NCBI RefSeq assembly: GCF_002940685.1
Contig: NZ_PNFP01000007.1
Location: 248,001-312,000 of the forward strand
Direction of reading: 5' to 3'
Origin: Ensifer adhaerens
Lineage (GTDB): Bacteria; Pseudomonadota; Alphaproteobacteria; Rhizobiales; Rhizobiaceae
DNA: 64,000 bases
Part shown: one piece after another, positions 56,142 to 62,048 of the stretch
Layout: each line of letters opens with the position of its first letter
How positions within the stretch are numbered: position 1 is the stretch's first letter
The notes under the pieces: model-generated
The model's database searches: none
Seen by the model: only the letters and a program-made list of their open reading frames with translations
Told to the model about the DNA's origin: nothing
Position numbers and translations under genes: made by a program

Positions 56142-58622
56142 ATGGCGGCATCGAAACTCAAGGACTATCGCGCGAAACGGGATTTTTCCAGGACGCCGGA
56201 GCCTGCCGGGAGAACCGGTGGGGAGGGCAATCGTTTTGTCGTGCACAAGCATCACGCCACCGCCGATCACTATGATCTCAGGCTGCAGGTCGGCGACGTG
56301 CTGAAGAGCTGGGCGATCCCCAGGGGGCCATCACTCAATCCCGCCGACAAGCGGCTGGCGGTCGAGACCGAGGACCATCCGCTCGACTATATCGACTTCG
56401 AAGGCGTCATTCCCGAGGGCGAGTACGGCGGCGGGCCGATGATCGTCTGGGACGCCGGCGTCTGGGCGCCGATGGACGATATCGAGAAGAGCCTCAGGAC
56501 CGGCGCCTTCAAGTTTCGTCTTGCCGGCGAGAAGCTCAATGGCGGCTGGATGCTGACTCGGCTGAAACCGAAACCGGGCGACGACGACAAGCGCAACTGG
56601 CTGCTGTTCAAGGAGCATGATCTCGCGGCCGACCCTGATGCCGACATACTGACGTTACGCCCGGAAAGCGTGAAAAGCGGCCGGCGGATCGAGGAACTGG
56701 TCGAGCTGCCGAAGAAGTCGACGAAGCGCGCCGTTCTCAAGCCCGGCGCATTGCCGGGCGCGGTGAAGGGCCCGAAGCCGCAACGGATCGAACCGCAGCT
56801 TGCCAGCCCGACGCCGAAGCCACCGGGCGGCCCGCCGGACAGGCCGGACAGGCCGGACAAGACGGACTGGCTGCACGAGATCAAATTCGACGGCTACCGC
56901 ACGATGGCGGACATTTCGGACGGCAGTATCAGGCTCATCACCCGCAGCGGGCTGGACTGGACGAAACGCTATGGCGATCTGCCCGATGCCTTCCGCGAGC
57001 TGCCCTGCCGCGAGGCGATCATCGATGGGGAAATCGTCGTTCTCGACGACAAGGGCATCAGCCGTTTCGCGCTCTTGCAGGATGCGCTTTCGACGGGTGT
57101 GGACAGCAAGCTCGTCTTCTATGCCTTCGATATGCTCTACCTCGATGGCTGGAACCTGACCGAGGTCCCGCTGGAAAAGCGCAAGGCGCTGCTGGTGCAG
57201 CTGCTTGAAGGGCAGGTGTCCAGCCGCTCGGCCATCCAGTATAGCGACCATGTCGTAGGGGACGGGCGCGGGCTTTACGAGCATGCCTCGGAACTGGGGC
57301 TGGAAGGGATCGTCTCCAAACGCACCTCGGCGCCCTATCGCAGCGGCCGCACTCAGACCTGGACCAAGACGAAAGCGCTCAACAGCGATGATTTCGTGAT
57401 CGCCGGCTATACCGTCTCCGAGGCCGCCGAAGGCCTTGCGGCGCTGGCGCTCGGGGAATGGGTGGACGGCGAGCTGCACTACCGCGGCAAGGTCGGAACC
57501 GGGTTCGATGCGGAGACGGCCAAACAGTTGCTCGTCCGGCTGGAAGCGTTGCGCGGTGGCGCGACGGCACTCGATGGCGCACCCAAGGAAATCCTCTGGG
57601 TGCGGCCGGTCCTGAGCGCCCGCATCCACTACTCCAACCGCACGACCGACAATGTCCTGCGTCATGCGGTCTTCAAGGGGCTTCGCGACGTCGAACTTTC
57701 TGCCCCGGCGGCTTCGCCGCGCAAGCGGCTGATCACGGACGCCGACCTTGCGACGATCCAGGTCACCAATGCCGACCGCCGGGTGTTCGGCAAATCCGGG
57801 CCGACCAAACTCGACATTGCCGTCTATTACGCGCTCGTCGGCGATTTCATGCTGCCGCACATCCTTGGTCGACCGGTGTCGCTCTTCCGCTGTCCCACGG
57901 GAAAGCGCACGGATTGCTTCTTCCAGCGCCACCCCTTCACCGGCATGCCGCCCTCCATCGTCAGCTTCAACGCGACCAATTCCGAGGGCGAGAGCAAGTC
58001 TTTCCTCTCGATCGAGGGCACGAAGGGCTATCTGGCGCTTGCCCAGTTCGGCGTGATCGAGCTTCACAGCTGGGGCTCGCGGCGCGCGCGGCTGGAGAAG
58101 CCCGATCGCATCGTCTTCGATCTCGATCCCGGCGAGGGCATCGCATGGCGCGACGTGGTCGAGGCCGCCGTCCATATCCGCGGCGAGCTGGAGGGGCTCG
58201 GCCTAGTTCCCTTCGTCAAGACATCGGGCGGCAGTGGCATCCATGTCGTCGTGCCCGTGACGCCGAAGCTCGACTGGAAGAAGACGCACCAGGCGACGAG
58301 CGCCATTGCGTCGCGACTGACGGCGACCGCGCCCGAGACCTTCACCACGACGATGGGCAAGGAGAACCGCGTGAAGCGGATCTTCATCGACTTCCACCGC
58401 AATGCCCGCAGCCATACGGCGGCCGCGCCCTATTCGCTGCGGGCACGCACCAACCTGCCGGCTTCGGCGCCGCTCCATTGGGCGGATCTGGAGACTATCG
58501 ACGCTCCGGAGGATTTGAACTATTCTTCGCTGCCTGGACTTCTGGATACTTTCGGCGATCCCTGGGCGGATATCGACGACTTTGCCAAGGATCTGCCGCT
58601 TCTGTCCGAAACGAGGACGTAA
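56142..58622 (+). CDS. ligD: Multifunctional DNA ligase D (phosphoesterase-ligase-polymerase)
   Basis: An 826-residue NHEJ ligase with all three modules in PE-LIG-POL order. The 3'-phosphoesterase (about 30-165) has HKHHATADHYDLRL and EGVIPEGEYGGGPM. The ATP-dependent ligase (about 235-525) has the adenylated lysine K248 in EIKFDGYR, then DGEIVVLD and the LEGIVSKR and WTKTK motifs. The primase-type polymerase (about 540-815) has FDLDPGEG with metal ligands and GGSGIHVVVP. It repairs double-strand ends brought together by Ku. The linker (about 195-240) is Lys/Pro-rich with RPDRPDKTD repeats. A weak ribosome site precedes the ATG. Ku follows after 26 bp. Confidence 0.96.
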   Translation: MAASKLKDYRAKRDFSRTPEPAGRTGGEGNRFVVHKHHATADHYDLRLQVGDVLKSWAIPRGPSLNPADKRLAVETEDHPLDYIDFEGVIPEGEYGGGPMIVWDAGVWAPMDDIEKSLRTGAFKFRLAGEKLNGGWMLTRLKPKPGDDDKRNWLLFKEHDLAADPDADILTLRPESVKSGRRIEELVELPKKSTKRAVLKPGALPGAVKGPKPQRIEPQLASPTPKPPGGPPDRPDRPDKTDWLHEIKFDGYRTMADISDGSIRLITRSGLDWTKRYGDLPDAFRELPCREAIIDGEIVVLDDKGISRFALLQDALSTGVDSKLVFYAFDMLYLDGWNLTEVPLEKRKALLVQLLEGQVSSRSAIQYSDHVVGDGRGLYEHASELGLEGIVSKRTSAPYRSGRTQTWTKTKALNSDDFVIAGYTVSEAAEGLAALALGEWVDGELHYRGKVGTGFDAETAKQLLVRLEALRGGATALDGAPKEILWVRPVLSARIHYSNRTTDNVLRHAVFKGLRDVELSAPAASPRKRLITDADLATIQVTNADRRVFGKSGPTKLDIAVYYALVGDFMLPHILGRPVSLFRCPTGKRTDCFFQRHPFTGMPPSIVSFNATNSEGESKSFLSIEGTKGYLALAQFGVIELHSWGSRRARLEKPDRIVFDLDPGEGIAWRDVVEAAVHIRGELEGLGLVPFVKTSGGSGIHVVVPVTPKLDWKKTHQATSAIASRLTATAPETFTTTMGKENRVKRIFIDFHRNARSHTAAAPYSLRARTNLPASAPLHWADLETIDAPEDLNYSSLPGLLDTFGDPWADIDDFAKDLPLLSETRT

Positions 58623-58648: not shown

Positions 58649-59533
58649 ATGGCGCCCAGGGCAAGTTGGAAAGGTTATCTCAAACTCAGTCTCGTCAGTT
58701 GCCCCGTCAGGCTCTATCCGGCGACCAGTTCGAGCGAGCGCATCAGCTTCAATCAACTGCACAAGGATACCCATAACCGGATCAACATGAAGCCGGTCGA
58801 CCCGGAGCTCGGCCTCGTCGAGCGCTCCGACCTGGTCAAGGGTTACGAATACGAAGACAAGAAATATATCATCATCGAAGACGCCGACCTCGAAAGCGTC
58901 CGGATCGAGTCCAACCACACGATGAACATCGAGGCCTTCGTCGACGAAGGCTCGGTCGACGTGATCTACCAGGACGCGCCTTATTATCTCGCGCCCGATG
59001 GCGCGATGGCCGAGGAAACCTTCGTCGTCCTGCGCGAAGCATTGAAGAAGAGCGGCAAGCTGGCGATTGCGCGCCTCGTGCTTTCAAGCCGCGAGCGGGT
59101 GGTGACCATCGGCGCGCGCGAAACAGGTATGTTCGTGTGCACTCTGAGAAATCCGAGCGAAGTGCGTGGAACAGCTGAATATTTCGGGAACATCCCCGTC
59201 GGTCATCCCGACCCGGAAATGCTGCAGCTTGCCGAAGCGCTGATCCAGCAGAAGATGACGGTGTTCGATCCGAAGAACTACGAGGATCGCTACGAGATCG
59301 CGTTGATGAAGATGATCCGTGAGAAGCTCAAGGGCCACAAGCCGATCATCGCGGCCGCCCCCGAGCGCGGTAATGTCATCAATCTCATGGATGCGTTGAA
59401 GGCGAGCCTGTCGCAGTCGAAGCCGCCGGCAAAGAGCAAGACCAAGGCCGAACCGGCCGCCAAGGAAGCAGGCAAGGCGGCGGCGCCTGCCAAGCGGGCA
59501 GCGGCAAAACCGGTCGCGAAGAAGAAAGCCTGA
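58649..59533 (+). CDS. ku: Non-homologous end joining protein Ku
   Basis: A 294-residue bacterial Ku homodimer subunit that threads onto DNA ends and recruits LigD. The start (RASWKGYLKLSLVSCPVRLYPA) and RISFNQLHKDTHNRI are diagnostic; the core beta-barrel is at about residues 5-250. The last ~36 residues are Lys/Ala/Pro-rich (KSKTKAEPAAKEAGKAAA onward), a tail known in other bacterial Ku proteins to modulate DNA binding. The ATG follows TAGGAG. Its stop codon shares one base with the start of the next gene (TGATG), so translation of the BRCT-TPR protein is coupled to Ku. Confidence 0.96.
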   Translation: MAPRASWKGYLKLSLVSCPVRLYPATSSSERISFNQLHKDTHNRINMKPVDPELGLVERSDLVKGYEYEDKKYIIIEDADLESVRIESNHTMNIEAFVDEGSVDVIYQDAPYYLAPDGAMAEETFVVLREALKKSGKLAIARLVLSSRERVVTIGARETGMFVCTLRNPSEVRGTAEYFGNIPVGHPDPEMLQLAEALIQQKMTVFDPKNYEDRYEIALMKMIREKLKGHKPIIAAAPERGNVINLMDALKASLSQSKPPAKSKTKAEPAAKEAGKAAAPAKRAAAKPVAKKKA

Positions 59534-60618
59534 TGGCTGTTGCCGGCCAGACATTCGGTATTGTCGGGGCGATCTCGGCCTTTCCGCGCCGGCTTGTGGC
59601 GCGGGAGGTCGAGCGCCAGCACGGGCATTTGCGCCGCGGCGTCACGCGCCAGACGACGTATCTGGTGTTCGGCCGGAGCCTGCTCGCCAAGTCGAGCGAA
59701 GCGGAGATCGAGGCTCGTTTCGATGCCGAGCATGCGGCCGGACGATGGCTTGTCAGCGAAAACGGATTCCTCCGGCTTCTCGGGCTTCTGTCCGTACCGG
59801 CGGCATCGGCGCTCACGCGCCAGTCATTGATCGACCAGGCCCGGCTTTCCCCGCGGGTCTTCGATCTGCTCTCCCTGTTCGACGCGTTCGAACACGACAG
59901 CGAGCCCTATTCCTTCCGCGACCTCATCCTTGCGCGGAAATATGCGGAGCTGATCGGAAGCGGCGCGACCTGGGGCGCGATCGCCCGGTCTGTGCACCGG
60001 TCAGGCCAGGTCGCCTCGTTGACGGCGCTTTCGCTGCACCACGGCGGGACCGATACGATCTATGCCCGCAGCGCCGAGGGCTTGAGCGAACTGAACGGAC
60101 AGCTGCTCTTCGACCTCGGCACGCCTGACGATGCCGCCTTGGAAGATCTCTTCGATCTGGCGGAGGGGGCGGAAGCGAACGGCGACTACGAGCAGGCGGC
60201 CGCCTTCTATCAACGCTATCTTGCCATGGACCGGACGGATTCGGTTGCGGCCTTCAACCGCGCCAATTGCCTGAAGGCGGCGGGACACGCGCTGGATGCG
60301 GCGCATGACTACGCCCGCGCGATCAAGCTCGATCCCTCCTTCGTCGAGGCCTGGTTCAACCTCGCCGGGCTGATGAGCGAGCGGGGGCGAACCGACGCCG
60401 CGCGCAGGCATCTCAAGAAGGCGATCGAGATCGACGGCGACTATGCCGACGCGATCTTCAATCTGGCGAAACTCGAATTCGATGCGGGTGACCTCGGTGA
60501 AGCGCGGCGCTGGTGGAGCCGTTATCTCGAACTCGACAGCGATAGCGAATGGGCGCGGACGGCGGAACGCGGCGTGCAATATGTCGATTTGCACAGCCGT
60601 CCGAGAACAGCGGGCTGA
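59533..60618 (+). CDS. BRCT + TPR protein in the NHEJ operon
   Basis: A 361-residue protein with an uncommon domain mix. Residues about 5-78 look like a BRCT domain (GQTFGIVGAISAFPRRLVAR, TTYLVFG, and the late W in GRWLVSENGF). Residues about 85-150 form a helical, MerR-like segment (ARLSPRVFDLLSLFDAF, ATWGAIARSVHRSG). Residues about 205-345 are at least three tetratricopeptide repeats (AFYQRYLAMDR, AAHDYARAIKLDP, RRHLKKAIEIDG). BRCT domains bind phosphoproteins or DNA-repair partners; TPRs scaffold complexes. The start overlaps the ku stop by one base. A role as an NHEJ accessory or scaffold is my inference. Confidence 0.82.
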   Translation: MAVAGQTFGIVGAISAFPRRLVAREVERQHGHLRRGVTRQTTYLVFGRSLLAKSSEAEIEARFDAEHAAGRWLVSENGFLRLLGLLSVPAASALTRQSLIDQARLSPRVFDLLSLFDAFEHDSEPYSFRDLILARKYAELIGSGATWGAIARSVHRSGQVASLTALSLHHGGTDTIYARSAEGLSELNGQLLFDLGTPDDAALEDLFDLAEGAEANGDYEQAAAFYQRYLAMDRTDSVAAFNRANCLKAAGHALDAAHDYARAIKLDPSFVEAWFNLAGLMSERGRTDAARRHLKKAIEIDGDYADAIFNLAKLEFDAGDLGEARRWWSRYLELDSDSEWARTAERGVQYVDLHSRPRTAG

Positions 60619-60619
60619 T

Positions 60620-61261
60620 ATGGGCGACACATTCCTTCTTGACGGACCTGACGATGCGGATGTCACCATCCTCCTTGCCCATGGGGCCGGCGCGCCGATG
60701 GATTCCACCTCGATGAACGCGACCGCCAAGGCGCTGGCGAGTGCGGGCTTTCGTGTCGCCCGCTTCGAGTTCGGCTACATGGCGGCGCGGCGAACATCTG
60801 ACGGGCGCAAGCCGCCGCCGCGCGCCGAAACGCTCAATCCGGAATACATCGCCGCCATCGAAGCGCTCGGGGCCAAGGGGCCGCTTATCATCGGCGGCAA
60901 GTCGATGGGCGGGCGGGTTGCGAGCATGGTCGCCGACCAGCTGCACGCAGCCGGCAAGATTGTCGGGTTGCTCTGCCTCGGATATCCCTTCCATCCGCCG
61001 GCAAAGCCCGAGCAGCTGCGCACGAAGCATCTCGCCGACCTCAAGACGCCGACCCTGATCTGCCAGGGAACGAGAGACGAGTTCGGCACGCGCGAAGAGG
61101 TTCCGAACTATACGCTTTCCGATGCGATCGAGGTCCTTTGGCTCGAGGACGGCGACCATGACCTGAAACCGCGCAAGAGCCTTTCCGGGTTCTCGACCGC
61201 GGATCACCTTCGCACCGTCGCCGATGCGGTTGCATCCTGGGCCGCCCGGCTGACGCGCTGA
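60620..61261 (+). CDS. Alpha/beta hydrolase, TEX30/KANL3-like family
   Basis: A 213-residue hydrolase. The oxyanion region is LLAHGAGAPMDS, the nucleophile elbow is GKSMGGR (S95), the acid lies in QGTRDEFGT and the histidine in EDGDHDLKP, the layout of the short KANL3/TEX30-like family. It begins one base after the BRCT-TPR stop, so it belongs to the same transcript. No link of this family to DNA repair is established; co-transcription may be incidental. It could act on small esters or thioesters. Confidence 0.85.
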   Translation: MGDTFLLDGPDDADVTILLAHGAGAPMDSTSMNATAKALASAGFRVARFEFGYMAARRTSDGRKPPPRAETLNPEYIAAIEALGAKGPLIIGGKSMGGRVASMVADQLHAAGKIVGLLCLGYPFHPPAKPEQLRTKHLADLKTPTLICQGTRDEFGTREEVPNYTLSDAIEVLWLEDGDHDLKPRKSLSGFSTADHLRTVADAVASWAARLTR

Positions 61262-61274
61262 TCTGTTTGCCGGG

Positions 61275-62048
61275 ATGAAGATCGCCACCTTCAACATCAA
61301 CGGCATCAGCAAGCGGCTCGAAAACCTGATCGCCTGGCTTAAGGAAACCAAGCCCGACATCGTCTGTCTGCAGGAACTGAAGGCGGCCGATCGCCAGTTT
61401 CCGCGTTCGGCGATCGAGGCGGCCGGGTATGGCGCGGTCTGGCAGGGGCAATCGGCCTGGAACGGTGTTGCGATCCTTGCCCGAGACAGCGAGCCGGTGC
61501 TGACCCGCGTCGGGCTCGACGGCGATCCCTTGGACAGTCAGGCGCGTTACATCGAGGCGGCCATCAGCGGAATCCTGGTCGCTTGCCTTTACGCCCCCAA
61601 CGGCAATCCGCAGCCGGGGCCGAAGTTCGAGTACAAGCTTGCCTGGCACGCGCGCATGGCCAGACATGCTGCCGATCTTTACGCGCTCGATCTGCCTGTC
61701 GTGCTTGCCGGCGACTTCAACATCGTGCCGGAACCGCGCGACATCTACCCGACGAGCTCATACGACGACAACGCGCTGGTGCAGCCGGAAAGCCGCGCGG
61801 CATTCCGCGAACTTCTCGACCAGGGTTGGCTCGATGCGCTGCGCAAGGTCCATCCGAAGGACCAGCTTTTCACGTTCTGGGACTATCGCCGGAACCGCTG
61901 GGAGCGCGACGCGGGGCTGCGGCTCGATCATCTGCTGCTCAGCCGCAAGCTTTCCCGCAAGCTCACGGGTGCCGGTATAGACCGTGGCGTTCGTGGCATG
62001 GAGGGGGCGAGCGACCATGCGCCGGTGTGGGTCACGCTTCGCGATTGA
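61275..62048 (+). CDS. xthA: Exodeoxyribonuclease III (AP endonuclease)
   Basis: A 257-residue ExoIII/APE1-type nuclease. It starts MKIATFNINGISKRL with the conserved Asn, then CLQELKAAD (metal Glu), YAPNGNP, GDFNIVPEPRD (Asp/Asn), and SDHAPVWVTL (Asp-His). It cuts abasic sites and trims 3' blocking groups, producing 3'-OH ends that LigD polymerase/ligase can use. It lies 13 bp after the hydrolase gene in the NHEJ operon. Position with ku/ligD suggests end-cleaning during repair in stationary or stressed cells. Length is usual for the family (about 260). Confidence 0.94.
   Translation: MKIATFNINGISKRLENLIAWLKETKPDIVCLQELKAADRQFPRSAIEAAGYGAVWQGQSAWNGVAILARDSEPVLTRVGLDGDPLDSQARYIEAAISGILVACLYAPNGNPQPGPKFEYKLAWHARMARHAADLYALDLPVVLAGDFNIVPEPRDIYPTSSYDDNALVQPESRAAFRELLDQGWLDALRKVHPKDQLFTFWDYRRNRWERDAGLRLDHLLLSRKLSRKLTGAGIDRGVRGMEGASDHAPVWVTLRD

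Follow-up and report, generated by a model that had tools for sequence, protein, structure and literature searches.

A third gene directly behind ku in Ensifer adhaerens and other Proteobacteria may encode a dedicated Ku partner

Non-homologous end joining (NHEJ) in prokaryotes appears to be a two-factor process, according to a 2006 review (PMC1378119). The two genes of the bacterial system, ku and ligD, are found in the same cluster in the window, by which we mean the whole 64,000-nucleotide stretch of Ensifer adhaerens DNA that was analyzed (assembly GCF_002940685.1, contig NZ_PNFP01000007.1, positions 248,001 to 312,000 of the forward strand), but here a third gene (59533..60618, + strand) overlaps ku. 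By Pfam and alignments, its 361-residue product is a Ku-linked protein with a BRCT domain, a MerR-like winged helix-turn-helix and tetratricopeptide repeats (TPR), and it is referred to below, together with its relatives, as the family. Pol lambda, Pol mu and TdT are eukaryotic BRCT proteins known to dock on Ku bound to DNA, and they may be functional analogues, in that they likewise carry a single BRCT on a protein that works with Ku; the family, however, has no polymerase domain, its betaproteobacterial form has no BRCT, and docking is putative here. For the N-terminal domain, the closest relative found by sequence is the C-terminal BRCT of the NAD-dependent ligase LigA, which is placed at the C-terminus of a ligase, whereas the family BRCT is N-terminal on a protein that is not a ligase. 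The MerR family regulators (PF13411) have a winged-helix similarity in common with the family, in which, by contrast, the DNA-contact residues appear largely lost and a linker with a GQ motif and a TPR array come after the winged helix.

We propose that the third gene encodes a partner dedicated to Ku, which most likely acts as an adaptor at Ku-bound DNA ends, a reading that we hold at slightly less than an even chance. The terms BRCT, TPR, tetratrico- and MerR are not mentioned in the main text of a 2020 comparative study that includes an analysis of the ku/ligD neighbourhood (PMC7719229), nor in the corresponding text of a 2024 study of Rhizobium etli (PMC10932983), and none of five terms looked for occurs in PMC3616915. 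No description of the third gene was found in the literature searched, which excludes Kobayashi 2008, Dupuy 2019 and the 2001 prokaryotic Ku paper, and the gene was probably undescribed before. An earlier note, made from the letters of the window, had seen in it the best candidate for an undescribed component of a known system, with BRCT as its key module. Of this interpretation, the evidence supports a probably undescribed gene that is apparently translationally coupled to ku and encodes BRCT, a MerR-like segment and TPR. It does not support BRCT as the key module, so that the interpretation as a whole is partly supported.

Linkage of the third gene to ku

The stop codon of ku (TGA, 59531-59533) and the start codon of the third gene (ATG, 59533-59535) have a single base in common within the motif TGATG (59531..59535, + strand). 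The observation of a third gene at ku was confirmed, with coordinates, strand and 1-base overlap all exact as first reported; only its description as "fused" to ku was wrong, these being two separate genes that overlap. The ku gene itself (58649..59533, + strand) encodes 294 residues matching Pfam Ku (E 5.2e-43) and TIGR02772 (E 2.5e-82), and ends in a lysine-rich C-terminal tail, with a net charge of +10 by charge count over the final 40 residues (59411..59530, + strand). The closest named protein match of the third-gene product was from Ensifer adhaerens L18 (93%).

Relatives of the gene were surveyed within Pseudomonadota. In Alphaproteobacteria, 41 of the 42 loci in the first set of relatives held family members, the remaining one (L046) being a TPR-only match, and in all 41, as in 14 of 14 further loci, the gene lay directly behind ku on the same strand. 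Among 199 genomes of the bacterial family of the window, it was detected in 23 and was beside a ku in each of them (23/23, with genome G154 counted through locus L049). Ku was found in 123 of these 199 genomes, the Ku search and the gene search listing the same genomes, and none of the 76 Ku-negative genomes carried the gene (Fisher, 1.1e-5). In a class-wide sample of 385 genomes, the ten best matches besides the window all adjoined a Ku open reading frame, with E values from 1.6e-48 to 3.1e-7 and 28-36% identity (L101 was matched in two pieces, at 39-44%). The eight weaker of the 18 fetched regions (L102-L109, E 1.2e-6 to 3.6e-4) were without Ku; weak matches that were examined corresponded mostly to LigA tails, and two of them (L078 and L082) resembled exonuclease-BRCT proteins by eye. 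A further 17 of 17 loci had the gene beside ku.

Of 83 alphaproteobacterial loci, 34 had a start codon overlapping the ku stop by 1 base and 33 had a 4-base overlap (67/83 together). These loci are not wholly independent, as certain genomes are entered twice under different handles and one set of 55 proteins contained 51 distinct ones. In the remaining loci the gene starts between -26 and +72 from the ku stop, with one locus not callable. Moreover, the third gene is under purifying selection. Its ratio of non-synonymous to synonymous substitution rates (dN/dS) against four relatives was 0.045-0.137, with 0.093-0.177 for ligD and 0.033-0.056 for ku, the synonymous rate being above 1 in three of the four comparisons.

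Outside this class, a search with a profile made of the winged helix and linker (A5) detected a pair of proteins in a single genome from a different class. Each was encoded directly behind ku, and one of them was identical over 265 residues to a protein encoded on a Cupriavidus sp. EM10 plasmid. A set of 100 Burkholderiales genomes yielded 11 places covering the winged helix, in 10 genomes, and all 11 were behind ku; nine of these were full length, one (G1122) was in two pieces and one (G1166) was cut by a contig end. Ku scored above the cut-off in 18 of the 100 genomes, and the gene was present in 10 of these 18 compared to none of the 82 without Ku (p 2.5e-9). Two Burkholderiales matches without the winged helix (L216 and L217) were also examined and had no Ku. 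Plasmid records gave 22 matches, and in the 10 examined, from Paraburkholderia, Cupriavidus, Caballeronia and Variovorax, the gene was again directly behind ku on the same strand (10/10), under the annotation "tetratricopeptide repeat protein". In these betaproteobacterial loci ligD was on the opposite strand (L221 and L227), began about 1.8 kb downstream (L222), or was neither annotated nor found by BLAST within about 4 kb on each side (L218, L220 and L224), and therefore the gene follows Ku and not LigD. The gene is thus genetically linked to ku and occurs together with it across genomes, as looked for in an NHEJ component, and the link between Ku and the gene is strong and far beyond chance.

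Upstream of ku in the window is ligD (56142..58622), which encodes 826 residues with phosphoesterase, ligase and primase-polymerase domains by Pfam and NCBIfam. Downstream of the third gene are an alpha/beta hydrolase gene (60620..61261; Abhydrolase_11 by Pfam) and an exodeoxyribonuclease III-like gene (61275..62048), the latter assigned from Pfam Exo_endo_phos, a relative in H12 named xth, and synteny. All five genes are on the + strand. The hydrolase gene is directly 3' of the third gene in most Hyphomicrobiales loci, and the exonuclease III-like gene usually comes then. No strict EcfG-type promoter of the general stress response, searched for by its consensus, was found upstream of ligD. 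Some variant arrangements were also observed. In Ensifer sp. IC4062 (L030:5001-6725) the family gene and the hydrolase gene form one frame of 575 residues, probably due to a frameshift or an assembly error. A 714-residue frame in L095 (8764-10908, - strand), adjoining a family member, contains the LigD phosphoesterase and ligase domains plus Ku, without the polymerase domain, and is either a natural fusion of LigD with Ku or the result of a collapsed assembly. On the Cupriavidus sp. EM10 plasmid (L226:4816-7288), ligD is split into two overlapping frames.

Domain organization of the family

The BRCT domain proposed in the earlier note (residues ~3-87; 59539..59793, + strand) could not be detected in the window protein alone with Pfam at E<=1, and the NCBIfam LigA model matched it weakly (residues 3-57, E 0.05). 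Relatives were only slightly more informative, with a Pfam BRCT match in a single one of the 16 sequences first aligned at the N-terminus, scores just over the gathering score in L044 and L101 (21.5 vs 21.3), and scores below the cut-off in L096, L099 and L100. By contrast, a profile of the family N-terminus (A4) matched 377 of 398 Pseudomonadota genomes (E<=0.001), and among the matches listed the places were mostly the final ~85 residues of long frames. Thirty such tails were taken from the places examined, as A4 matches beyond residue 350, and all 30 long frames were LigA above the curated cut-off. When the family was aligned to these 30 BRCT tails with hhalign, the probability was 98.9 (E 3.8e-17, residues 2-91). 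Given this match between the family profile and the BRCT at the LigA C-terminus, we consider the predicted N-terminal BRCT to be real, and its absence, as taken from the single-protein Pfam miss, was rejected. A profile search that missed BRCT had been proposed as the refuting test; its outcome spoke against BRCT on the single protein, and for BRCT on the family.

BRCT domains are marked by a conserved Gly after beta-1 and by a Gly-Gly turn. Gly12 is kept in all 17 family members with a letter at that position, and the turn is GG in the A4 consensus and GH in the window protein. In BRCT domains that bind phosphopeptides, a pocket Thr or Ser precedes that Gly, and no such residue was found in the family (0/17). 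LigA has the Thr of its "TG" in 30 of 30 sequences, whereas the family has V, I, A or Y there (0/17 Thr). The BRCT segments were net basic in 19 of 19 sequences. One family member (L101:1484-2146) has BRCT and TPR and apparently no winged helix.

BRCT had been viewed as the key module for binding a repair partner, a view that was not supported as stated. No BRCT was found in the betaproteobacterial profile (hhalign probability 0.1), and these relatives stay tightly linked to ku. BRCT was consequently rejected as the feature tying the gene to Ku, since relatives without it are tied just as closely; the Ku-specific contact would therefore not be BRCT, and the more parsimonious site for the tie is the winged helix or the TPR. 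On this view, the Ku-linked core of the family is the winged helix plus TPR, and BRCT is an alphaproteobacterial extra.

The MerR-like segment that had been proposed was recovered at residues ~92-154 (59806..59994, + strand), where hhalign against 14 MerR proteins of the same genome gave a probability of 55 (E 1.2e-4, 63 columns) and none of 100 column-shuffled decoys scored as high. This match is weak in the alphaproteobacterial form, and of 10 betaproteobacterial relatives, 7 exceeded the gathering score of MerR_1 (PF13411). MerR proteins contact DNA through a motif L-R-Y/F-Y/W-E and a wing Arg, present in the 14 MerR proteins of this genome. As aligned, the second aromatic of the motif was found in none of 15 alphaproteobacterial and 1 of 17 betaproteobacterial relatives, and the wing Arg in none of the 32, compared to 14 of 14 MerR proteins for each. 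Eight of the 32 relatives retained the first contact Arg (3/15 alphaproteobacterial and 5/17 betaproteobacterial), compared to 10 of 14 MerR proteins, and the wing aromatic was still present in most of them (12/15 and 17/17, respectively). This pattern suggests a winged helix whose MerR DNA contacts have been largely lost, and annotation as an ordinary MerR regulator is doubted for that reason.

The MerR-like fold nevertheless raises the alternative that the protein regulates the NHEJ cluster, acting on the expression of ku and ligD as a transcription factor of the MerR type equipped with a TPR sensor. Regulators are often encoded in the operon under their control, and one betaproteobacterial plasmid relative (H55) is annotated "MerR family transcriptional regulator". 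Because the first contact Arg is kept in 8 of 32 relatives, we raised our estimate for a regulator and lowered that for an adaptor; the wing aromatic counts on the same side. Against a regulator are the near absence of the second aromatic and the complete absence of the wing Arg, the overlap with ku in place of a divergent arrangement, and the lack of an obvious role for BRCT. Moreover, the alignment, made without a coiled-coil predictor, showed no dimerizing coiled coil of the MerR type between the winged helix and the TPR. In balance, we regard a regulator as unlikely.

After the winged helix comes a conserved linker (59995..60126, + strand), with the motif ELNGQ in the window, ELDGQ in most alphaproteobacterial relatives and SGQ in most betaproteobacterial ones. 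The winged-helix and linker profiles of both groups matched each other in hhalign with a probability of 97.9 (E 4.5e-13). The TPR array noted previously is certain by Pfam (residues ~205-341; 60145..60555, + strand), and TPR segments were net acidic in 18 of 19 sequences. PADLOC gave matches to the TPR region (PrimPol model) and one weak match at the end of the winged helix of L168, and nothing else.

Proposed role at Ku-bound ends

The adaptor that we favor would give end-joining systems of this type a third component, and its synthesis would be tied to that of Ku through the stop/start overlap. Its acidic TPR array would bind a peptide of a partner, the first candidate being the lysine-rich tail of Ku, and contacts with DNA or another repair protein may be made by the BRCT, which is basic, and by the MerR-like winged helix. 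The protein could then help to keep the ends together or recruit LigD, and perhaps also the exonuclease whose gene is in the cluster.

Several observations weigh against this proposal. The gene was undetected in 100 of the 123 Ku-positive genomes of the bacterial family of the window and in 8 of the 18 of Burkholderiales, and the genome of the window itself has two further ku genes without it. A control set of 21 ku loci, made of 20 rhizobial ku places without a family match and the second ku locus of the same genome, contained no family open reading frame with three profiles at E<=0.1. As many Ku systems are without the gene, it is an addition to bacterial end joining and not a requirement. 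The hydrolase and exonuclease genes are almost equally fixed in place within Hyphomicrobiales, and operon partners need not bind each other. With regard to charge, the TPR segment of L097 is net +6 and that of L044 only -1. Acidic TPR domains and basic Ku tails are both common, which makes the charge match between them a weak argument.

An unrooted Ku tree of 90 rows was built from 41 rows with the BRCT form, picked for diversity out of the 83 alphaproteobacterial loci, 17 with the BRCT-less form and 32 without the gene. In this tree, 37 of the 41 BRCT-form rows fell in one clade that includes the window (support 100/99), and all 17 betaproteobacterial rows in another (100/100). The other four BRCT-form rows were beside two sets of paired Ku genes, with L097 on a long branch of unsure placement. 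The paired loci (L169, on contig C33 of the same genome as the window, L234, L237, L238, L240, L241 and L243-L247) each have two ku paralogues at a short distance from each other that form these two sets in the tree, and the third gene was found in none of the 11. This topology fits an old association that was lost once Ku became a pair, a scenario that needs three label changes on an unrooted tree.

A second alternative, which we rank below the regulator, is a chaperone or antagonist of Ku, that is, a factor for its assembly, stability or unloading that limits or resets Ku on DNA and is co-made to match the amount of Ku. TPR proteins often chaperone, and the start/stop overlap and the association with Ku rather than LigD would agree with such a factor, which is hard to separate by sequence from an adaptor; it gives, however, no clear role to BRCT and the winged helix. 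Finally, passive linkage of an ordinary TPR gene hitchhiking on a mobile ku-ligD cassette is very improbable: plasmid records often carry family genes (87 records of Sinorhizobium, Ensifer and Pararhizobium and 22 of Burkholderiales) and the cassettes may move, but the linkage persists at ~30% identity, across two classes, with and without BRCT and at varied ligD positions, dN/dS is low, and among the loci examined no member covering the winged helix was away from ku.

Implications for bacterial end joining

Taken more broadly, and with somewhat less confidence than the adaptor role itself, NHEJ may be a three-part system in many Alpha- and Betaproteobacteria. It would include an old Ku-dedicated adaptor made of winged helix, GQ linker and TPR, either predating the split of both classes or exchanged together with ku, to which a LigA-like BRCT was added in Alphaproteobacteria, in parallel to the BRCT proteins docking on eukaryotic Ku, and which was lost where Ku is a paralogous pair. 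If true, a dedicated third gene beside ku in many soil and symbiotic proteobacteria alters the Ku-plus-LigD picture of bacterial end joining. A third component could account for end bridging by these Ku proteins or for their recruitment of processing enzymes, an idea that can be tested directly in Sinorhizobium, in Cupriavidus and with in vitro end-joining systems. Moreover, the use or deletion of ku-ligD in rhizobia may have involved only part of a system.
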